DNA of 64,000 nucleotides, taken from NCBI GenBank assembly GCA_002919235.1, contig PKEX01000029.1:112583-176582 (forward strand), read 5' to 3'. The notes under the pieces were generated by a model. The model did not search any database and was not told where the DNA came from. It saw only the letters and a program-made list of their open reading frames with translations. Numbering within the stretch: position 1 is the first letter of the stretch; the number at the start of each line of letters is the position of its first letter. Position numbers and translations under genes: made by a program. Source of the DNA: Clostridia bacterium. GTDB taxonomy: Bacteria > Bacillota > Limnochordia > DTU080 > RSA5. This document shows, one piece after another, positions 3,490 through 18,537 of the stretch.

Positions 3490-5370
3490 GTGATCGAAAC
3501 GGACCAGCACACCGCAGGCGAGCTCGTGGTCAGCTCCGGCCGCGGCCCGCTGAAGATCTTCCCTGTCACCGTCCCCATCATGGGCTCCCAAGCCATCGGC
3601 CTCTTTCGCTTGCCGGCCCCTGAACAGCTCAGCGATGAGCACTGGATCGGGGCGCTCTACCCCGTCCAGTACTCTGCCTCCTGCGTCGAGGAGCTGGCGG
3701 GTCTCCTCGAACAGCCCCGTTTGCCGGGCCCTGAGTGGTACCGGCTCCTCGTGGAGGCGGAAGAGCTCTCCCTTCCTCCGGGATCCACGGAACTTCTCGC
3801 ACCCCGGCACCTCGCGGAAGTGTGGCGGCGGGTGGGTGTCATTCCCTACCCCCACCAGCTGGAGACGGCGCGGCGGGTCCTCTTCGAGATGGGCGGGAGG
3901 GCCATCCTCGCGGACGAAGTGGGTCTCGGCAAGACCATCGAAGCGGGCCTGATCATCAAGGAGTGCCTCCTTCGCGGGCTTGCCCGCCGGGTGCTGATCC
4001 TCACCCCCGCCGGCCTGGTATGGCAGTGGTTCCGGGAACTCAAGGAGAAGTTCAGCCTCTCCTGCGGGATGCAGCGGAGCGAGTACGACTGGGAACGGAC
4101 CGATCTGCTCATCGCCTCCATCGACACCGCCAAGCGGAGCCCGCACCGGGAGATCATCCAAAGGCTCCACTACGACATCCTGGTGGTGGACGAGGCCCAC
4201 AAGCTCAAGAACGCAACCAGCCAGAACTACCGGTTCGTCAACTCCATCCGCCGGACTTACTGCCTGCTGCTGACGGCGACGCCGGTGCAAAACGACCTCA
4301 AGGAGCTGTACAACCTGATCAATTTGGTGCGGCCGGGTCAACTGGGCACCTACCGCGAGTTCAAGCGGGCTTTCGTGGCGGACCGCCGGACACCGAAAGA
4401 GGTGGACGGGCTGCGGCGGCTCCTCTCTCAAGTGCTGATCCGCAACCGCCGGGGGCCCGGCTCGGTCCAGTTCACCGCCCGGCACGTCCACGCCGTCCCC
4501 GTGGAGCTCTCCCAGGAGGAGCGAGCGCTTTACGAACGGGTCACGGCCTTCGTGAAAGAAGGGTACCGGAAAGGCCGGAACACGTACCGCAACGTCCTCC
4601 CTCTCATTACGCTGCAGCGGGAGGTGTGTTCCAGCCCCATCGCGGCCGCGATCACCTTGGAGAAGCTCCTGATGAAGGAAGGGGATCCCGAGGAGCGGCG
4701 CCGCTTGGAAGAGCTGCGCGCGCTGGCCCTCTCCCTCCACCGCAACCGCAAGGCCGAAGTGCTGGAAGAGCTCATCGCAGGCCTCGGCGGCGAAAAGGTG
4801 ATCGTCTTCACCGAGTACCGGGCCACCCAGCACTACCTGCGCTGGCGGTTGGAAAAGGCCGGCTTTTCCACGCTGGGCTTCGACGGTTCCCTTTCGCCCG
4901 GCCGCAAGGAGTGGATCCGGGAGCTTTTCCGCCGCCACGGGCAGGTGCTGGTGAGCACCGAGTCGGGCGGCGAGGGGATCAACTTCCAGTTCTGCTGCCA
5001 CGTGGTCAACTACGATTTGCCGTGGAACCCTATGCGCATCGAGCAGCGCATCGGGCGGGTGCACCGGCTCGGGCAGACCCGCGACGTCTCGATCTACAAC
5101 TTCGCCACCCGCGGGACCATCGAAGAGAGCGTCCTGTACCTGCTCTATGAAAAGATCGACATGTTCCAGACGGTCCTGGGCGAGCTGGATACTATCCTCA
5201 CCCGGATTCGCCTCCACGACTCTCTGGAAAAGGAGCTGGCCGACATCCTGGTGGGGTCCGCATCCCGGGAAGTGATGGAAGAGCGGCTGGCACGCTTGGC
5301 AGAACGCATCGTGAGGGCGCGGGACGAGGCGAGGGAGGCGGATCCCCTGGACCGCCTCCGCCTTTGGTGA
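3490..5370 (+). CDS. SNF2-family DEAD-like ATPase, YqhH/RapA-like (copy 1)
   Basis: Double-stranded-DNA-translocating SNF2 ATPase of 626 residues. An N-terminal domain of about 115 residues precedes the motor. The motor shows motif I DEVGLGKTIEAG, motif II DEAHKLKN, motif III LLLTATPVQND and motif VI EQRIGRVHRLGQ. The GTG start has GGGAGG 7 bases upstream. The next gene, 14 bases on, encodes a YqhG-like protein; in Bacillus subtilis the similar pair is yqhH-yqhG, of unknown role. RapA-like RNA polymerase recycling is one possibility, but the RapA-specific N-terminal domains are not evident. A paralogue lies at 10832-12535 on the other strand. Confidence 0.85.
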   Translation: MIETDQHTAGELVVSSGRGPLKIFPVTVPIMGSQAIGLFRLPAPEQLSDEHWIGALYPVQYSASCVEELAGLLEQPRLPGPEWYRLLVEAEELSLPPGSTELLAPRHLAEVWRRVGVIPYPHQLETARRVLFEMGGRAILADEVGLGKTIEAGLIIKECLLRGLARRVLILTPAGLVWQWFRELKEKFSLSCGMQRSEYDWERTDLLIASIDTAKRSPHREIIQRLHYDILVVDEAHKLKNATSQNYRFVNSIRRTYCLLLTATPVQNDLKELYNLINLVRPGQLGTYREFKRAFVADRRTPKEVDGLRRLLSQVLIRNRRGPGSVQFTARHVHAVPVELSQEERALYERVTAFVKEGYRKGRNTYRNVLPLITLQREVCSSPIAAAITLEKLLMKEGDPEERRRLEELRALALSLHRNRKAEVLEELIAGLGGEKVIVFTEYRATQHYLRWRLEKAGFSTLGFDGSLSPGRKEWIRELFRRHGQVLVSTESGGEGINFQFCCHVVNYDLPWNPMRIEQRIGRVHRLGQTRDVSIYNFATRGTIEESVLYLLYEKIDMFQTVLGELDTILTRIRLHDSLEKELADILVGSASREVMEERLARLAERIVRARDEAREADPLDRLRLW

Positions 5371-5384
5371 GGAGCGGGAGAGCC

Positions 5385-6263
5385 GTGCACGCGGGAGACC
5401 AAGCGGTGAAGCGCTTTGTCCTGCGCTATTTGGAGCTCTTGGGCGCCGCCGTCGAAGAGACGGAGCCCGGTCTCTTCCGCATCGAACTCAGCCGGGAGCA
5501 AGCGGCGGAGCTGGAAGGCGGAAACGTGCCCGCGTGGCTGTGGACAGCCGGGCCGAACCCGCCGTCGCAGGTGACGTACTACTTCACCTTTTCCCCCGAA
5601 ACGGCCCAAAAGCACGCCGCCGCCGAGCTGGTGAGCCCCGGCTCCCACCGGCTGCAGCAGGTGGTGGAGTCGGTCCGCAACCTCGCCCGGGCGACCCGGG
5701 CGCACCTTCCCGCACCCCCCGGAATGGGCGCGCGTTTCCGGCCCTTTTACCTCATGTGCCTTCGGGTTGACTTCCGGGGCTCGGCCCAACGCGGCCAGCT
5801 CTTCCGCGTGGCCGTAGACCGGGTCGACGGGGTGCCCCTGCGGCAGCTGGCGGAGCTGCTTTCCCGTCTCCCCCTGGCCGCGGGGCCCCCGCCGGAGCAC
5901 GGGGCCCCCGTGGAACGCCCCCGGCTGGATCTGGCAGACGCGTTTCTCGCCGCCTACCGCGAGCTCTTGGAACAGCTGGAGCGTTCGGACGCGGCGTGGG
6001 CGCAGGAGGCTCTCGAGAGCCTGATCCGGGAGAGGGAACGCCTTGTCGCCTACTTCGAGCAGTGTCAACGGGAGGGGCTGGACGTCAGCGACGAACGGGC
6101 GCGCCGGCTGGCCGAGCTCGAGGCCGTGCGCCCCCGGGTCCACGTACGGCTGCAAGGAGTCTGCGAAGCCTACCTGCCCGTGCGGACCGTGGACGGAACC
6201 GTCGAACACCTGGCCCTTCTGCCGCTGCGCCCCGCTCAGGCTCCCGCGCCCGCTTGGAGATAG
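5385..6263 (+). CDS. YqhG-like partner of the SNF2 helicase (copy 1)
   Basis: A protein of about 292 residues with no catalytic motif that I recognise. The order is an N-terminal alpha/beta part starting DQAVKRFVLRYLELLGA, a beta-rich middle, an acidic coiled-coil-like helix (ESLIRERERLVAYFEQ) and a final beta segment VHVRLQGVCEAYLPV. The second module's partner at 9333-10820 follows the same order, including a matching start DEIARFVAGFF. The GTG start is chosen from that alignment; GTG at 5406 is also possible. The assignment to the YqhG family rests on position beside the helicase and overall pattern. The 3' end overlaps the convergent gamma-carbonic-anhydrase gene by 28 bases. Confidence 0.7.
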   Translation: MHAGDQAVKRFVLRYLELLGAAVEETEPGLFRIELSREQAAELEGGNVPAWLWTAGPNPPSQVTYYFTFSPETAQKHAAAELVSPGSHRLQQVVESVRNLARATRAHLPAPPGMGARFRPFYLMCLRVDFRGSAQRGQLFRVAVDRVDGVPLRQLAELLSRLPLAAGPPPEHGAPVERPRLDLADAFLAAYRELLEQLERSDAAWAQEALESLIRERERLVAYFEQCQREGLDVSDERARRLAELEAVRPRVHVRLQGVCEAYLPVRTVDGTVEHLALLPLRPAQAPAPAWR

Positions 6264-6757
6264 CGGTCTTTCTGGTTCACGTAGTGGCGGACGCCTTCGG
6301 CCATCCGCCGGCGTTCGTCCCCGGTCAGCTCCCTCACGGGTCTCGCCGGCACACCCATCGCCAGCCACCCGGCGGGGATCTCTTTTCCTTCGGGCACCAG
6401 GGCGCCCGCCGCCACCAGCGCGCCTTTGCCGATCCGGGCGCCCGACAAGACGACGGCTCCCATGCCGATCAGCGCCCCGTCCTCCACCACCGCCCCGTGG
6501 ACGATGGCGCCGTGCCCTACGGTGACGTCCCGGCCGATCCGGCAGGGAAAGCCGCGGTCGGTGTGCAGCACCGCCCCGTCCTGGATGTTGCTCCGCTCCC
6601 CCACTTCGATGGGCTCGAGATCGCCCCGGAGCACGGCGTTGAACCAGACGCTGGCGTCGTCGTGCAGGGTGCAGTCGCCGATGATCCGGGCGCCGGGGGC
6701 GACGAAGACCCGCCGGCCAGCCCTGGGCCCGGGGCATCCCGGCAGCTCAACGAACAT
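6236..6757 (-). CDS. Gamma-carbonic-anhydrase-like protein (YrdA/CaiE family)
   Basis: Left-handed beta-helix protein of 173 residues built from hexapeptide repeats. Three histidines that fit the zinc site of gamma-carbonic anhydrases are visible in VLHTD and VGHGAIVHG, so reversible CO2 hydration is possible. Many family members show little activity and the true substrate is unknown. The ATG is preceded by AGAGGAGAG. The gene overlaps the end of the MrfA helicase gene by 11 bases, suggesting coupled translation. The stop lies inside the 3' end of the opposing YqhG-like gene. Confidence 0.88.
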   Translation of the reverse strand: MFVELPGCPGPRAGRRVFVAPGARIIGDCTLHDDASVWFNAVLRGDLEPIEVGERSNIQDGAVLHTDRGFPCRIGRDVTVGHGAIVHGAVVEDGALIGMGAVVLSGARIGKGALVAAGALVPEGKEIPAGWLAMGVPARPVRELTGDERRRMAEGVRHYVNQKDRYLQAGAGA

Positions 6758-9236
6758 GCCGTCTCTCCTCTCTCGCGGCGGCGAGCCGCTGCAGCTGCTT
6801 TCTGAGGCGCAGTTCGAGCCTCTCGGGCAGGGGTTCGCTGGGCGGCCGCACCACGGCGGACCCGGCCGCCTCCTCCCCGGGAAGCGCCCCCGCTTCACGG
6901 TATGCCGGGGCGAGCTTGGGCACGTAGGGCTCCCGCCCCAAGAGGGCGTGGAGAATCACCAGGGCGGCCTCCTTATCGGGAACGGCGCCGCTGGCCTCTC
7001 CGTCCAGCTCCCCCTGGGGGTAGGGCAGGATCGGCGACCCGACGCACGACGGGCAGCCGGCCTCGCAGGGGCAATCGTGGATCAGCTCGCAGCACGCGTC
7101 CAGGATCTCCTCCACCAGTTCGTACGCTTTGGCCGCAAAGCCTACGCCGCCGGGGTACCGGTCGTACACGAAGAGAGTGGGAACACCGGTGTTGCTGGAG
7201 TCCACCAAGGTTCCCACGTCGTGGGTGTCGCACATGGCAAACAGCCCCATCACCTCGCCGAAGACATTGGCCAGCCCCAGCATCCCCTCGGCGGGGCTGC
7301 GGCCCGCTCGCCGGACGGCGTGCAGCGCCTCGAGGGGCGGCGTGAGCCACATGCCGGCGGTCTCCAGGGTGACGGGCGGCAGGTTCACTTTCCCGAAACC
7401 GATGCTGTCCCGCTCGTAGAAGCGGATCTTCTTGTACATGAACGTGATGAAGGTGACCGATACGTCGCCAAAACCCAGCCGGGAACCCTGCCACTCCTTC
7501 TCCACCTGGACCTCTTCGATCCGGATCCGCTGGTCCGTGATGGCCTGCGTGTAGTAATCCAGGTCGGCCCGGTGCACATAGGCCACTCGCTCCTCCAGGT
7601 CCAGCGACGAGACGAAGTAGGGCTCTCCCTGATGGAGATAGACCGCCTCCGAATGCAGCTGCATGAACGCGGAGATCTCGTCCAGGCTGCCGATGACCTG
7701 ATGTTGGCCGGTGGTGGTGTCGACGATGGTGTAGGTGTTGTCCGTGCTGTTCCGGAGGGAGACGTCGTCGGCCGGATACCCCTTCCCCGTCCAGAACCAG
7801 CGGTCGCCCCGCAGGACGATCTCCCGTCCCTCGGCCAGGAGGTCCAGGAGCGCCGGGGCCATCTCGCCGAACGAGCGCTCCTCCGCCACCTTCAGCGGCA
7901 GCTCAAAGATGGCCGCCCGCAGGTGCGCCAGGACGATGTGGGGGTTGTCGGGATCGATCACCGCCCGCTCCGGGCTCTTTTCAAAGAGCCAGCGGGGGTG
8001 CAGCATCAGGTACTGGTCCAGCGGCGTGTTGTGGGCGACCAGGAACGCCACCGCCTCCTGCTTGCCCCGGCCGGCCCGCCCCGCCTGCTGCCACATGCTG
8101 GCGATGGATCCGGGATAGCCCACCAGGATGGCGGCGTCGAGCCCGCCGATGTCGATGCCCAGCTCCAGGGCGTTGGTGCTGGAGATGCCCAAGAGCTCGC
8201 CTTCAAACAGCTGCCGCTCGATCTCCCGGCGTTCGGCCGGCAGGTAGCCGCCGCGGTACGCCCGGACCGCCCGGGCCAGGCTGGGCTGGCGCCGCTGCAG
8301 CTCCTCCCGGGTGTAGCGGTAGAGGAGCTCCGCCACCACCCGGGCTCGGGTGAAGGCGATGGTCTGCACCCGCTCCGAAATGAGCTCGACCATGATCTTC
8401 TGAGCCTCGGCGTTGCTGCTCCGGCGCTCCATGGTCTCGCCGATCCGGGGCGGATTCCAGAGGACGAAGTGCTTCTTGCCCCGGGGCGAACCGTCGTCGT
8501 CGACCACCGTGCACCGACGGCCGGTGAGGCGCTCCGCGTGTTCGCCCGGGTTGGCTATGGTGGCGGAGCAAGCGATCACCGTGGGCGAGGCGCCGTAGTG
8601 CGCGGCGATGCGGAAGAGACGGCGCAGCACGTTGGCCACATGGGAGCCGAAAATGCCCCGGTAGGTGTGGAGCTCGTCCAGAACCACGTAGCGCAAGTTG
8701 CCGAAAAACCGGGCCCAGCTGGTATGGCGCGGCAGAATCCCCGAGTGCAGCATGTCGGGGTTGGTCAGGACGCAGTTGCCCTTCTCCCGGAGCGAGCGGC
8801 GGGTGTGCTGCGGGGTGTCGCCGTCGTACGTGCCGGCGACCAGGGGAAAGCGGGAGTCCAGCTCTTTGAAGCGCAAGAGCCCGCGCAGCTGGTCCTGCGC
8901 CAGCGCCTTGGTGGGGAAAAGGAGCAGCGCGGTGGCCTCCGGCTCCTCGAGCAAGGTCTCGAGGATCGGCACGGTGTAGCACAAGGTCTTTCCCGACGCA
9001 GTCCCCGTCACCACCACCACGTGCTCTCCGCGCCGCACCGCGTCGATCGCGTCGGCCTGGTGCGTGTAGAGAGCCTCGATGCCGAGGCGGGACAGAGCCC
9101 CGGCGACGGCCGGATGCAAGGGCCGTTCGGGCGCCCGGGTCCTCGCGCCCCGCTCGGGCACGACCTCCACGTGCACGATCTGGCCGCGGTACGCGGCGTC
9201 GCTCTGCAGGCGTTCCAGGAACCGCTGGACGTTCAT
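6747..9236 (-). CDS. mrfA: DEAD/DEAH-box helicase MrfA (YprA) with C-terminal DUF1998-type domain
   Basis: Superfamily 2 helicase of 829 residues. Motifs: Walker A TGTASGKTLCY, DELHTYRG, SATIANPGEH, and QQAGRAGRGK for motif VI. The C-terminal domain holds DCPCEAGCPSCVG, a four-cysteine zinc site typical of YprA. In Bacillus subtilis MrfA works with the exonuclease MrfB in repair of mitomycin damage. No mrfB is visible in this window. The start at MNVQRFLERL is preferred to an ATG 15 codons upstream because GGAG lies 6 bases before it. It follows the second SNF2/YqhG pair by 96 bases and runs into the gamma-carbonic-anhydrase gene. Confidence 0.9.
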   Translation of the reverse strand: MNVQRFLERLQSDAAYRGQIVHVEVVPERGARTRAPERPLHPAVAGALSRLGIEALYTHQADAIDAVRRGEHVVVVTGTASGKTLCYTVPILETLLEEPEATALLLFPTKALAQDQLRGLLRFKELDSRFPLVAGTYDGDTPQHTRRSLREKGNCVLTNPDMLHSGILPRHTSWARFFGNLRYVVLDELHTYRGIFGSHVANVLRRLFRIAAHYGASPTVIACSATIANPGEHAERLTGRRCTVVDDDGSPRGKKHFVLWNPPRIGETMERRSSNAEAQKIMVELISERVQTIAFTRARVVAELLYRYTREELQRRQPSLARAVRAYRGGYLPAERREIERQLFEGELLGISSTNALELGIDIGGLDAAILVGYPGSIASMWQQAGRAGRGKQEAVAFLVAHNTPLDQYLMLHPRWLFEKSPERAVIDPDNPHIVLAHLRAAIFELPLKVAEERSFGEMAPALLDLLAEGREIVLRGDRWFWTGKGYPADDVSLRNSTDNTYTIVDTTTGQHQVIGSLDEISAFMQLHSEAVYLHQGEPYFVSSLDLEERVAYVHRADLDYYTQAITDQRIRIEEVQVEKEWQGSRLGFGDVSVTFITFMYKKIRFYERDSIGFGKVNLPPVTLETAGMWLTPPLEALHAVRRAGRSPAEGMLGLANVFGEVMGLFAMCDTHDVGTLVDSSNTGVPTLFVYDRYPGGVGFAAKAYELVEEILDACCELIHDCPCEAGCPSCVGSPILPYPQGELDGEASGAVPDKEAALVILHALLGREPYVPKLAPAYREAGALPGEEAAGSAVVRPPSEPLPERLELRLRKQLQRLAAAREERRHVR

Positions 9237-9332: not shown

Positions 9333-10820
9333 CTACGCCCGCTCGCCCCCCGTGGTCTCGGCGAGGAACGAAAGGGCCGCGGCGCACGGGCCGCAGTACT
9401 GGGCGGCGCAGGCGGCGCAGACCGCCGGCGGTCCCCCCGGTCCGGCCAAGCCGGCGCGGCATTCGGGCCCGCACGCCGGGCAGACGGGCCCGCCGCACAG
9501 GTGGCAGCGGGCGGGGGCGCAGGCGCGGCACACGGCGCGCCCGCATCCGGGGCAATGGGTCGCGCAGGTGCGGCACACCAGCGCCCGGCACTGGCACAGA
9601 CTCACCTCGTCTCCGAGGGGGCCTGAGCAGCTCTCGCACTCCCAGCCCACCAGTCTCCGCCGGGCCAGGTCGTACAGGACGGTGACCTCTCTCTGGACGC
9701 TGCCCGACAAGAGGAGTCGCCATTCGACCCGGGGCACTCGCACCAGCGCCGCCTGAGTCAGCGTGATCTCCACGCGCGCCCTGTGCTTTTCTCGCACCTC
9801 CCGCAGCCGCTGTTCCTTCTCCCTCTCGAGCAGGGCCAGCTCCTTCTCGCACTCCGCCCCCAGCCGGTCGGCCTCCTGCTGCAGGGCGGCGAAGGCCTGG
9901 CGGTAACGCTCGCCGGTGCTCCACGAGCGGGCCAGCTCCGCCCCGACGCGGGCCGCCGCCATCCTGCGAAACAGCTTGCGCAAGGGGTCGACCCGCTCTT
10001 GAATCAAGCCGGCGTAATACTCTTCGATGCGGCGCTCTTCCCTGCGCAGCCGCGCCTCGACCGCCGCCTGGTACGCCCCGGTCTCTCTGGCCAAGCGCCT
10101 CGCCAGGTGGTCGCAGGCCCTCCGGTAGAGGCGGTGGAGCGCGTACGGCTCGCCCTCCAATCCCCCGGACCCCAGATCGAAGGGGGCCGCCGCCTTGAGG
10201 TCCACCGGGCGGTCGATCTCTTCGGTATACGGGTCGATCAAGAGCGACACCGTTCGCTCCCGCTTCTCGTCGGAGATGAACGAGACTCTGAAGAAGAACA
10301 TCACTTGCGTGTGGAACACAAGACGCGCCGCGAGGGGCTTCACGCCCGCGACGCGGAAAACCAGCCTCCCCAGGCGTCTCTCCAGATCCCTCCAAGCGGC
10401 CGGAGCATCCTCCGGCCTTGGGCGGCTGCCTTCCCGGAGCTCCGCCGCCGGCGCGGATCCGGACCGGTTGCGAGAGGACCGAGTCCCGAAGGGATTGGCC
10501 GTCGAAAGCGCCTCCAGGAGCTCACGGTCGAGGCCGTGGGGCAGGATCACGCTGGCGGTCCGGCCCCGGGACCGGGCCTCGTCCAGGAGCCGGTCGAGGA
10601 GGGGGTGGCCCAGTGTGAGGTATTCCACCCTCTGGTCCGGGCCGCTCTCCGCCGCCCGCGGCGAAAACGCCAGGCGAAGTTTCCGGCAAACCCCCAGTCT
10701 CGACCGGAGCGCCTCCGGCACCTCCACCTCCAGCACGCCGGCGTCGACCCAGCGGAGCACGGCGCCGTTGAGGGTGAAAAACCCGGCGACGAATCGGGCG
10801 ATCTCGTCCTGGCGCGCCAC
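9333..10820 (-). CDS. YqhG-like partner of the SNF2 helicase (copy 2) with cysteine-rich tail
   Basis: A protein of 495 residues that starts 11 bases after the second SNF2 gene. The first 385 residues or so follow copy 1: a start like DEIARFVAGFFTLNGA, a beta region FHTQVMFFFRVSFISD, a long charged coiled coil (LEREKEQRLREVREKH) and a closing beta segment VEITLTQAALVRV. The last 100 residues carry 19 cysteines, mostly as CxxC pairs (CESC, CRTC, CPGC, CRAC, CHLC, CPAC, CAAC, CGPC), suggesting several stacked zinc ribbons. This tail is absent from copy 1. GTG is chosen as the start from the alignment, with GAGGGG 10 bases upstream. Function unknown. Confidence 0.75.
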   Translation of the reverse strand: MARQDEIARFVAGFFTLNGAVLRWVDAGVLEVEVPEALRSRLGVCRKLRLAFSPRAAESGPDQRVEYLTLGHPLLDRLLDEARSRGRTASVILPHGLDRELLEALSTANPFGTRSSRNRSGSAPAAELREGSRPRPEDAPAAWRDLERRLGRLVFRVAGVKPLAARLVFHTQVMFFFRVSFISDEKRERTVSLLIDPYTEEIDRPVDLKAAAPFDLGSGGLEGEPYALHRLYRRACDHLARRLARETGAYQAAVEARLRREERRIEEYYAGLIQERVDPLRKLFRRMAAARVGAELARSWSTGERYRQAFAALQQEADRLGAECEKELALLEREKEQRLREVREKHRARVEITLTQAALVRVPRVEWRLLLSGSVQREVTVLYDLARRRLVGWECESCSGPLGDEVSLCQCRALVCRTCATHCPGCGRAVCRACAPARCHLCGGPVCPACGPECRAGLAGPGGPPAVCAACAAQYCGPCAAALSFLAETTGGERA

Positions 10821-14908: not shown

Positions 14909-17638
14909 TCAGGGCGTGCGGGCAGCGTCCGAGAGCTGTTCTAAGACGGCGCCCAGCTGCTCCAGGGCCCGCCCGTACCCCGGCCAGTCGCCGCTGCCCG
15001 CGAGCCGCCTCGCTTCTTCAAAAAGCGCCGCCGCCCGGCGGATTAAGCCGGCGACATCCTCCGGAAGAGCGAGTTCCAGCGGGCCCGCCTCACTCCCGCG
15101 TCCCGGCGGGGGCGGCGAGGACTCCCGGCCCGCCGGGGAGCCATCTGAGACTCCGGCCAGCGCTGCCAGGGCCTCCGCCAGCGTGGGCCGCATCACCAGC
15201 CGGTCGCCGGTCCCGGCGATCACCTGCTTCAGCTCCGGGATCTCCCCGCGCTCCGCTTGGAGGAAAAGGGGCTCCACGTAAAGGAGCGTATCGCCGACAG
15301 GAACGATGATCAGGTTGCCCCGGATGGCCCGGGAGCCTTGCTGGCTCCACAGCGTCAGCTCCCGCGAGATTTCGACGTCCTGGTTTACCCGCGCCTCAAA
15401 CTGCATGGGGCCGAAAGTGACGTCCTGCTTGCCGAACCGGTAGAGGACCAGCTGGCCGTAGGCATCGCCGTCGCTGCGCGCCGCCAGCCAGGCGACCATG
15501 TTCCCCTTGCCCAGTGGCGTGAAGGGAAGCATGAGAATGAACTCCTCCCGCTCCTCCCCGGGGAGCCGGGTGATGACGTAGTACGGCTCCATGTCCACCT
15601 CGGCGCTTTCGTAAAGCTCCCGCGGCAGTTCCCAAACGTCCTCTTGGTTATAGAAGACCTGAGGATTGGTCATGTGATACCGGGTGAGAATGGAAGCTTG
15701 CAGGCGGAAAAGGTCTTCGGGATAGCGGACGTGGTCCCGGAGCGCCCGGGGCATCTCCGAAAGAGGCTTGAACGTCCCCGGGAACACCCTCGCCAGCGCC
15801 CGGATCACGGGCTCGTCCTCGGCGATGTAAAAGTCCACGGTGCCGTGGTACGCGTCGACGACGGCCTTCACCGAATTGCGCACGTAGTTTCCCCAGCCCG
15901 GAGTGGGCAGCGCGTAGGGAAAGCGGGTGGAGGTGGTGTACGCGTCGGCGATCCAAAAGAGCCGTCCCTCCGCGAGGACCAGGTACGGGTCGCCGTCAAA
16001 ACGCAGGAAAGGAACCAGGCGCTGGAGCCGGGTGCGGATAGGCCGGTAGAGCATCACGCGGCTTTCCGGCGTAATGTCATTGGAAAAGAGGATCCGGGTA
16101 GTGCCGAGACGGGCGGCGAACCACAGGCGGCGCAGCCAGCCTCCTAAGGGAACGCCTCCTCTTCCCTCGTAGAAGGCCGTGGCGTTTTCGTCGCCCAGAG
16201 GATAGTCAAACTCCGGCCGGCGGGTCTTGACGATGACGTAGCCGGCCTCTTGCTCACCGTAGTAGATCTCGGGGCGCGTCACCTGGAGCTCCGGCACGCC
16301 GTGCGGCGGGATGTCCGCCAGGAAAAAGCGAGGCAAACCCCGGGGGTCCACTTCGTTGACCGGGCTCATCACCACGCCGTAGCCGTGGGTGTATTGGAGA
16401 TGCAGGTTTACCCAGGAGCGGTTTTGCAGGCTGGCCGAGGTCAGCTCCCGCGCGGCCAGCATCACCTGGCGGTACTGGCCGTCGATCCAGTAGCGGTCCA
16501 CGTCCACCTCGATGAAGTCGTAGTACGGCCGCAGCTCCTGAAGCTGGGAATAGGTACGCAGAAGCGGCCGGTAGTCCCACAGGCGGATATTGGCCAGCGT
16601 CCGTTCGTACGCCGCCAGAAGGCCGGGCGTCACCTCCGCGCGCGGATCGTAGTCGCGCGGCTCGACGGCGGTCAGCCCATATCCTGCCCGGGTCATCTCC
16701 ACGTGCGCCTGGATGTACGGGAGCTCCTTCTCCAGCTCGTTGGGGCCGACGACGAACTCTTGGACCAGGGCGGGCAACACCCCGGTGCCGAGCACCGCGG
16801 CAGCCGCCAGGGCCGCGAGCCCGGTCACCACCCAGCGCCAGCGAGGCCGGAAACCGTGGGCTACCAAGGCCACTGCCAGCAAGAGAGAAGCCCCTGCCAT
16901 CACCCAGAGGGCGGGAAGGGTCGCGTGAACGTCGGTGTAGCCTGCGCCGTAGAAAGCCCCGCGGGTCGAGTAGACCAAGCGGTAGGCCGAAAGCCGCAGG
17001 CCTGCGGCGTTGATCACGGCCGCCAGTGCGAAGAGCCACGAAAGGTGGCGGCGGGCGCCCGCCGCAAGGCGCAGCCTCCGCCCGTCCACCGCGAGGGCGC
17101 CGGAGGCGAAGTAGTAGCCGCCGGCACCCAGGGCCGCCAGGACGGTGAGGCTCAGTCCGAACGTTTGGGCCAGCTCCAGCAGGGGCAAGCGAAATACGTA
17201 AAATCCCGCGTCCCGGTGGAAAAGAGGGTCGGCGACGCCGAACTCCCCGCCCGTCAGGCCCAGGGCCACCGTCATCCAGTGTTCGGAGACGACCGCTCCC
17301 GCGAGGAGGGCGACGGCCAGCGCCCCCCAGCGCACGGCGCGCCGGGCCCACCGCCCGGCCGCCGCCAGCGCCGCATGCGCCTCCCACCGGAGGAACGCAT
17401 CGCCCGCCACCCGTCCGGCCACCCACAGGTTGAGCCCGAAAAAGAGCAGGGCGACCAAACCCGCTGCAGCGCCCACCGCCGCCCGCCACACCAGCGGGCC
17501 GGCGAACAAAGACGGGTAACCCAGCTCGGCGAACCACAGCCAGTCGGTGACCGCGCGGGAGCTCGCCGCGAGGACCAGCGCCGCGGCGGCGACGAGGCCC
17601 AGCAGTGCCCAGCGGAGCGTGCGGCGCCCTGTCCTCAT
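14909..17638 (-). CDS. UPF0182 family integral membrane protein
   Basis: Protein of 909 residues of the UPF0182 (COG1615) family. About seven transmembrane helices fill the first 300 residues, with a large extracytoplasmic domain after them (for example YTHGYGVVMSPVNEVDPRG). The function of the family is unknown. The C-terminal end contains a Pro/Gly/Ser-rich low-complexity linker (near residues 835-850) and a short helical tail. The ATG is preferred to a GTG three codons earlier because GGGAGG then sits 9 bases upstream. It overlaps the hsp33 region by a few bases, so the two are probably co-transcribed. Confidence 0.9.
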   Translation of the reverse strand: MRTGRRTLRWALLGLVAAAALVLAASSRAVTDWLWFAELGYPSLFAGPLVWRAAVGAAAGLVALLFFGLNLWVAGRVAGDAFLRWEAHAALAAAGRWARRAVRWGALAVALLAGAVVSEHWMTVALGLTGGEFGVADPLFHRDAGFYVFRLPLLELAQTFGLSLTVLAALGAGGYYFASGALAVDGRRLRLAAGARRHLSWLFALAAVINAAGLRLSAYRLVYSTRGAFYGAGYTDVHATLPALWVMAGASLLLAVALVAHGFRPRWRWVVTGLAALAAAAVLGTGVLPALVQEFVVGPNELEKELPYIQAHVEMTRAGYGLTAVEPRDYDPRAEVTPGLLAAYERTLANIRLWDYRPLLRTYSQLQELRPYYDFIEVDVDRYWIDGQYRQVMLAARELTSASLQNRSWVNLHLQYTHGYGVVMSPVNEVDPRGLPRFFLADIPPHGVPELQVTRPEIYYGEQEAGYVIVKTRRPEFDYPLGDENATAFYEGRGGVPLGGWLRRLWFAARLGTTRILFSNDITPESRVMLYRPIRTRLQRLVPFLRFDGDPYLVLAEGRLFWIADAYTTSTRFPYALPTPGWGNYVRNSVKAVVDAYHGTVDFYIAEDEPVIRALARVFPGTFKPLSEMPRALRDHVRYPEDLFRLQASILTRYHMTNPQVFYNQEDVWELPRELYESAEVDMEPYYVITRLPGEEREEFILMLPFTPLGKGNMVAWLAARSDGDAYGQLVLYRFGKQDVTFGPMQFEARVNQDVEISRELTLWSQQGSRAIRGNLIIVPVGDTLLYVEPLFLQAERGEIPELKQVIAGTGDRLVMRPTLAEALAALAGVSDGSPAGRESSPPPPGRGSEAGPLELALPEDVAGLIRRAAALFEEARRLAGSGDWPGYGRALEQLGAVLEQLSDAARTP

Positions 17639-17643
17639 CTCCC

Positions 17644-18537
17644 TCACCCTCCCGCCTGGGCGATGAGCGCGCGCAGCTCGTCTTCACTCACGTGGTACAC
17701 CTGTCCGCAAAAGTGGCAGACCAGCTCCGCCCCGCCTTGAGTCCGGGCGATCTCCTCCAGTTCCTCCTTGCCCAGCGAGACCAAACCGCTGCTGAACCGC
17801 TCTTTCGAGCACGAACAGTGAAAACGGACGGGCCGCTCTTCCAGGCGCTTGGGCTCCATCCCTTCCAGCAGGCCGAGCAGGATCTCCAGCGGCCCCAGGC
17901 CTTCGTCGATGGACCGGCTCAGCGCGGGCATCGCCCTGATCCGCTCCTCAAGCCTCTGGACCAGCTCTTCGTCCTCCTGGGCGCCGGGCATCATCTGGAT
18001 CAAAATGCCGCCCGCTGCCCGGACCGACCCCTCTGGGGCCACCAGAACGCCCAGGATACAAGCGGACGGCGTCTGTTCGGATACGTTGAGGTAGTACGCC
18101 AGGTCTTCCGCGATTTCGCCCGAAACCAGGGGCACCAACCCCCGGTACGGCTCGCGAAGCCCCAGGTCCTTCACCACGTAGAGATGGCCGGACCCCACTG
18201 CACCAGCCACGTCCAGCTTCCCTTGAGCGTTGGAGGGCAGATGGACGTGAGGATGGTGGACATAACCCCGCACGTTTCCCGCGGCATCGGCCTCCGCCAC
18301 GATCTTGCCGAGAGGGCCGTCCCCCACGATTTCGATCATCAGGCGCTGCTGCCCCTTGAGCACCGCTCCCAAGAGCGCGGCGCCCGTCAGGGTGCGGCCC
18401 AAGGCGGCCGCGGCGGTGGGAAAGGCGTCGTGACGGCGGCGCGCCTCCTCCACAGTCTCCGTAGTCCGCGCCGCCAGCGCCCTCAGGCACCCGCCGGCGG
18501 CGGTCAAGTGGACCAGGATGTCGCCTCCCGTGCTCAT
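17644..18537 (-). CDS. hslO: Hsp33 redox-regulated chaperonin
   Basis: Cytoplasmic holdase switched on by oxidation. The C-terminal zinc centre is intact: HCSCSKERF about residue 241 and CHFCG about residue 274 give the CxC...CxxC cysteine set whose disulfide formation releases the zinc and activates the chaperone. At 297 residues it is normal length. It lies 4 bases after the RodZ-like gene and directly before the UPF0182 gene, all on the same strand. Confidence 0.96.
   Translation of the reverse strand: MSTGGDILVHLTAAGGCLRALAARTTETVEEARRRHDAFPTAAAALGRTLTGAALLGAVLKGQQRLMIEIVGDGPLGKIVAEADAAGNVRGYVHHPHVHLPSNAQGKLDVAGAVGSGHLYVVKDLGLREPYRGLVPLVSGEIAEDLAYYLNVSEQTPSACILGVLVAPEGSVRAAGGILIQMMPGAQEDEELVQRLEERIRAMPALSRSIDEGLGPLEILLGLLEGMEPKRLEERPVRFHCSCSKERFSSGLVSLGKEELEEIARTQGGAELVCHFCGQVYHVSEDELRALIAQAGG

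Follow-up and report, generated by a model that had tools for sequence, protein, structure and literature searches.

A conserved cysteine tail on a distant YqhG paralogue encoded next to a RapA/HepA-like SNF2 translocase

YqhG2, the second YqhG-like protein encoded in the window (the whole stretch of 64,000 nucleotides that was analyzed), carries at its C-terminus a cysteine tail which is real and conserved, and which is undescribed in the sources searched. No named family covering the tail was found in Pfam, NCBIfam or PADLOC, and within that scope (the survey of prokaryotic binuclear treble clefs, Burroughs 2011, falls outside it) the statement of the initial annotation, that no YqhG relative with such a tail had been described, held. 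What is new is the tail itself; the known kinds that it varies are the YqhG-type partner protein and the zinc modules of the FYVE/RING type. The explanation favored here, with about an even chance of being correct, is that YqhG2 serves a RapA/HepA-like SNF2 translocase as its dedicated accessory subunit, and that its tail is a structural, interlaced zinc module with a FYVE/RING-like center that docks on a protein partner. The features considered are collected in Table 1.

Table 1. Features of the tailed gene and of its neighbors, with their positions in the window.
Feature	Positions	Strand	Basis or remark
SNF2_1, paralogous SNF2 translocase, partner of YqhG1	3490..5370	+	Pfam scan; SNF2 tree
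YqhG1, PF11079 member without tail	5364..6263	+	41.8 bits, cut-off 25
MrfA/YprA-type helicase, next downstream of YqhG2	6747..9236	-	PF09369 MZB, WHD_HRQ1; likely ATG 9236, ORF opens 9281
YqhG2, distant YqhG paralogue with cysteine tail, 495 aa	9333..10820	-	stop codon 9333-9335
YqhG2 body: long antiparallel helical hairpin, residues 225-345	9786..10148	-	AlphaFold, pLDDT mostly 96-98
Cysteine tail, residues 395-479, 19 Cys, ten half-sites P1-P10 (P8 = single Cys)	9384..9638	-	alignment; pLDDT mostly 92-96 over residues 390-450
N-terminal zinc ribbon (predicted), P1 (C395/C398) + P3 (C416/C419), with P2 (C409/C411) between	9564..9638	-	sole site kept in short-tailed homologues
FYVE-spaced binuclear core (predicted), P4 C423/426, P6 C439/442, P7 C447/450, P9 C468/471	9408..9554	-	spacing, EEA1 profile match, Foldseek
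C-terminal helix, residues 469-490, bearing C471 (P9) + P10 (C476/C479)	9351..9416	-	AlphaFold secondary structure
SNF2_2, RapA/HepA-like SNF2 translocase, 567 aa	10832..12535	-	DEVGLGKT + DEAH ATPase motifs

The tailed paralogue and its cysteines

The gene of YqhG2 starts with a GTG at 10820, behind AGGGGTGAG and 11 nt after the SNF2_2 gene. The protein gave no Pfam match at E values up to 0.1, PF11079 (YqhG) included, nor any meaningful match to NCBIfam or PADLOC models, and BLAST against YqhG1 gave no significant match. The relationship came out when family alignments were compared with hhalign: the YqhG2 family matched YqhG at 99.7% (E 2.3e-25) over 245 columns, in an alignment that ends just before the cysteine tail and leaves the latter outside the common body. 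Judged from these comparisons, YqhG2 is a distant YqhG paralogue, the paralogy being visible only profile to profile. The initial annotation had described a helicase partner whose paralogue lacks the tail, and this was borne out, although at a distance. A tailed homologue, L086 (genome G072), scores over the PF11079 cut-off (43.8 versus 25 bits).

YqhG is a Pfam family without assigned function, whose gene accompanies an SNF2 translocase gene in Bacillus. As compared to this family (PF11079; partner gene of the SNF2 helicase YqhH/HepA in Bacillus), YqhG2 has a homologous body and a gene placed likewise directly after an SNF2 gene, but, unlike YqhG1, it is not recognized by the PF11079 model, and it has the cysteine tail in addition. 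No plasmid-borne relatives of YqhG2 were found.

The cysteines of the tail are residues 395, 398, 409, 411, 416, 419, 423, 426, 431, 434, 439, 442, 447, 450, 454, 468, 471, 476 and 479, nearly all of them paired as CxxC or CxC. This agrees in count and coordinates (9638 down to 9384) with the about 19 cysteines, mostly in CxxC pairs, earlier noticed within some 90 C-terminal residues. At the cysteine frequency of the neighboring proteins (1.1%), the binomial probability of at least 19 cysteines in 85 residues is ~1e-19, and each of the remaining five reading frames of this DNA gives 0–4 cysteines. Fourteen tail-type proteins, the one of the window included, were aligned; ten of them have cysteine at all 19 positions, while one position deviates in two others (L032 and L034) and three positions in another two (L042 and L044). 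The homologues of the same tail type show 29–48% identity. The conservation of the 19 cysteines in homologues from other genomes excludes a composition bias, and also a frameshift or assembly artefact as the origin of the tail. Scans of the 14 aligned tails yielded nothing but scattered weak matches to B-box, FYVE, DZR and RING models.

Predicted zinc pairing and likeness to FYVE domains

The half-sites are lost in defined combinations. In the short-tailed homologues L043, L045–L047, L089 and L091–L099, P1 is kept, in most of them P3 too, and nothing else; in the sister class, P2 and P5 are absent together; in L042 and L044, P8 (C454) and P10 are absent together. These joint losses suggest the zinc sites P1+P3, P2+P5 and P8+P10, and leave over P4, P6, P7 and P9, which have the spacing of a FYVE domain and align to the four half-sites of EEA1, so that the known FYVE pairing gives P4+P7 and P6+P9. 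Altogether, the sequences suggest that the tail holds some five zinc ions at interlaced sites (P1+P3, P2+P5, P4+P7, P6+P9, P8+P10), where we infer both the metal and the exact pairing, the loss patterns amounting to few independent events of which the body tree resolves only a part. The predicted site P8+P10 has three cysteines only. Concerning the several zinc ribbons proposed in the initial annotation, the zinc-type character of the cysteine array stands, but the half-site losses, the EEA1 profile match, the Foldseek results and the spacing do not favor independent tandem ribbons; the tail probably consists of a single ribbon that interlaces with a binuclear module of the FYVE/RING type, plus further sites.

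The AlphaFold model has a pLDDT of 89.4 for the whole YqhG2 and of 88.1 for the tail alone. When the tail profile was compared to the PDB, the FYVE domain of EEA1 was matched with E 1.5e-5, with P4, P6, P7 and P9 aligned to FYVE half-sites 1–4; the spacing along these half-sites is 2,12,2,4,2,17,2 in YqhG2 and 2,12,2,4,2,16,2 in EEA1, as read for the latter from the profile alignment. Foldseek run on the tail model retrieved mostly FYVE, Rab-effector, RING and LIM fingers, with FYVE domains on top; the rabphilin finger matched with prob 0.93 and an rmsd of 1.8 over 49 columns, the best E being 0.077 and none being equal to or lower than 0.001. The motifs of PI3P binding, WxxD and R(R/K)HHCR, are absent from the YqhG2 tail, where ARCHLC replaces RRHHCRxC and no WxxD precedes P4; the FYVE motif RVC occurs, among the tail-type proteins, in L031 only. 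Since cysteine-rich profiles inflate similarity, and the Foldseek E values are weak, the resemblance to FYVE could be convergent.

Compared to the FYVE and Rab-effector fingers (EEA1, Hrs, rabphilin-3A), the YqhG2 tail has in common the four half-sites C2C-12-C2C-4-C2C-16/17-C2C, but it is bacterial, whereas the FYVE/RING zinc domains that it resembles belong to proteins of animals and fungi, it contains P2/P5 and P8/P10 as extra half-sites as well as the preceding ribbon P1/P3, and its fold match alone is not significant. With the prokaryotic RING-like, binuclear treble-clef domains it would share the interlaced pairing of half-sites, although there are two sites in those domains and about five predicted in the tail; Prok-RING_4 matched weakly one of the 14 tails (E 0.033). 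For the whole YqhG2, Foldseek gave no significant match. Among its weak matches, the proteins of DUF164/COG1579 (FlgZ/HP0958, CT398, MSMEG_4306) make the most sense: like YqhG2, they have a long helical hairpin that bears a zinc finger at its C-terminal end (Foldseek prob 0.82 and 0.75). With E >1 against YqhG2, one mononuclear ribbon and no helicase partner, they are taken as an analogy only.

A tentative proposal, which we would rate as possible but short of an even chance, is that the tail is a modular zinc fold of a new type, in which interlaced half-sites are braided around a FYVE-type binuclear core. Such a braid could be reduced to a single ribbon or be extended, in units of 15 residues (CxxCGxxxCxx[HDC]xxxx), into a long zinc-stabilized rod, as in L086 with its 53 cysteines. 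It would be a bacterial relative of FYVE, or its convergent equivalent, placed on an SNF2 motor.

The SNF2 partner and the gene neighborhood

In every homologous locus examined, the YqhG2 homologue comes after an SNF2 gene. In the SNF2 tree, the partners of the tail-less YqhG1 form one clade (100*), the partners of the single-ribbon proteins of other classes form a separate clade (100*), and the partners of the long-tailed proteins are the rest, with those of the class's four short-tailed proteins among them. The clades follow the type of partner, which indicates that SNF2 and YqhG-type proteins stay matched. There is thus good evidence, from gene order and phylogeny, that SNF2_2 and YqhG2 are a dedicated pair, predicted to form a complex. 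The tailed paralogue shows the SNF2-YqhG pair to be an old and faithfully matched unit, sometimes one polypeptide, and makes a physical complex directly testable.

In genome G022, an SNF2 helicase and a tailed YqhG paralogue are fused in one frame of 989 aa (L036, 9624-12590, minus strand). In L109–L111, MurC is followed directly by MrfA, both SNF2_2 and YqhG2 being gone from between them.

Concerning known translocases, SNF2_2 is, like E. coli RapA, a RapA-like SNF2 ATPase, but its score with the NCBIfam RapA model (215.5 bits) is below the cut-off of 576, and the N- and C-terminal domains of RapA were not found in it. The possibility that YqhG2 were the split-off C-terminal half of RapA was considered and rejected, RapA being absent among the 50 Foldseek matches listed. 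The literature on the Bacillus relatives is sparse: YqhH/HepA has been counted among the translocases interacting with RNA polymerase (PMC7385302), and deletion of yqhH makes B. thuringiensis UV-sensitive (PMC10054049).

Across the class, the genes are found again in the order MurC-SNF2-YqhG2-MrfA, with genes for SpoIIP, RodZ and FtsK beside them. The neighborhood (MurC, MrfA, SpoIIP, RodZ, FtsK, Hsp33) is one of housekeeping genes rather than a defense island. The MrfA/YprA-type helicase is located between two convergent SNF2-YqhG pairs, an arrangement that also recurs across the class, and an MrfB-like exonuclease is encoded elsewhere in the source genome. Other neighbors are the gene of a UPF0182 family protein of 912 aa (14909-17647), adjoining SpoIIP, and that of Hsp33, a redox-regulated zinc chaperone (17644-18537), whose location some 7 kb away from YqhG2 is probably a coincidence.

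Possible function and distribution of the tail

In the favored explanation, the body of YqhG2 would attach to the SNF2 translocase, the helical hairpin would project the zinc tail outwards, and the tail would dock on a protein partner, e.g., stalled RNA polymerase or a repair factor; docking would load the motor where it is needed, the motor work itself being done by the SNF2 subunit. Here we infer docking, rather than sensing, and likewise the nature of the partner. Binding to polymerase, one of the roles proposed in the initial annotation, may be such a case. The absence of the PI3P motifs, the neutral-to-acidic character of the tails (net charge from +4 to -7 across them, with few aromatics) and the lack of a ferredoxin signature make a structural head for docking on proteins more plausible than DNA binding, a redox sensor or an array of iron-sulfur clusters. 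In the analogous coiled-coil and zinc-ribbon protein FlgZ/HP0958, the CxxC cysteines are needed to protect sigma-54 (PMC3372290).

The tail could, instead, be a nucleic-acid-binding zinc array that guides the SNF2 motor to certain structures in DNA or RNA. In favor of this, binding to nucleic acids is common among zinc ribbons, the neighboring gene encodes the DNA-repair helicase MrfA, and the helical hairpin has a slightly basic character (net charge from 0 to +8). Nevertheless, the range of charge and the scarcity of aromatics given above disfavor nucleic-acid binding by the tail, one of the functions that had been suggested for it at the outset, and the closest likenesses are FYVE, RING and Rab-effector fingers that bind protein or lipid, so this alternative is considered unlikely.

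Rather more doubtful is that the tail acts as a zinc or redox sensor, in which the labile site formed by C454 with C476/C479 would lose zinc or form a disulfide and thereby switch the helicase partner. The odd number of cysteines and the C-terminal site with three of them fit with it, as does the variability of the P8+P10 site, wholly absent in L042 and L044; the vicinity of the Hsp33 gene could be added, but it may be due to chance. Against it, closely packed and invariant cysteines, in a module whose fold is predicted with confidence, have the look of a structural element, and the operon showed no regulator or thiol-redox gene.

A further possibility considered was that the locus belongs to an antiphage system like DISARM or ARMADA, systems that combine YprA-like with RapA-like helicases and accumulate additional zinc-binding modules. 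Helicases of the YprA family and RapA-like helicases do occur in defense systems, where the YprA helicases gain zinc-binding modules (PMC12458937), and SNF2_2, which adjoins a YprA-family helicase, best resembles the DrmD/BrxHI models. The DrmD/DpdE scores are, however, far under the curated cut-offs (DrmD, 267.8 bits versus 950, and 234 versus 610), no further DISARM/ARMADA components appeared among the genes scanned, and no methyltransferase or nuclease component among those examined. In addition, the class-wide order of the locus, beside SpoIIP, RodZ and FtsK, looks like that of vertically inherited housekeeping genes. A defense role is thus judged improbable.

The iron-sulfur array mentioned in the initial annotation, or an electron-transfer one, is very improbable. 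The high cysteine density would fit it, as would a weak Fer4_3 match of one of the 14 tails (E 0.29); but the CxxCxxCxxxCP pattern is absent, the knuckles are of the CxxCG type, and zinc fingers lead the matches both by profile and by fold.

With respect to distribution, 18 of 73 genomes in the class gave a strong match to YqhG2, the tail being long in 14 and a single ribbon in four; three further genomes matched the body in part. In the sister class, six of seven genomes encode the long tail without P2/P5 (one of these ends at a contig end), and none was found in the seventh. In other classes of this phylum, the YqhG-like protein bears just one ribbon, of 3–5 cysteines. The tail is missing or reduced to one ribbon in L043, L045–L047, L088 and L090, and such losses or reductions in several lineages indicate that it is dispensable in them. 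The variants of the tail constitute a natural series for the growth and decay of interlaced zinc modules of the FYVE/RING kind. With its defined cysteines, and with natural tail-less and hyper-expanded versions, the tail also offers a handle on the docking targets of bacterial RapA-like motors.

At the expanded extreme, the YqhG-like L086 (1785-3857, minus strand) has 691 aa and 53 cysteines, mostly in a near-perfect tandem repeat of the 15-residue unit given above. No other protein of the source genome carries the tail. The search of 398 genomes of the phylum with the tail profile gave 13 matches, 11 of which belong to the tailed YqhG family. The other two are weak (E ~1e-5) and are located in short open frames, at G257:C1:1031030-1031200 (L159) and G071:C15:107831-108022 (L160).
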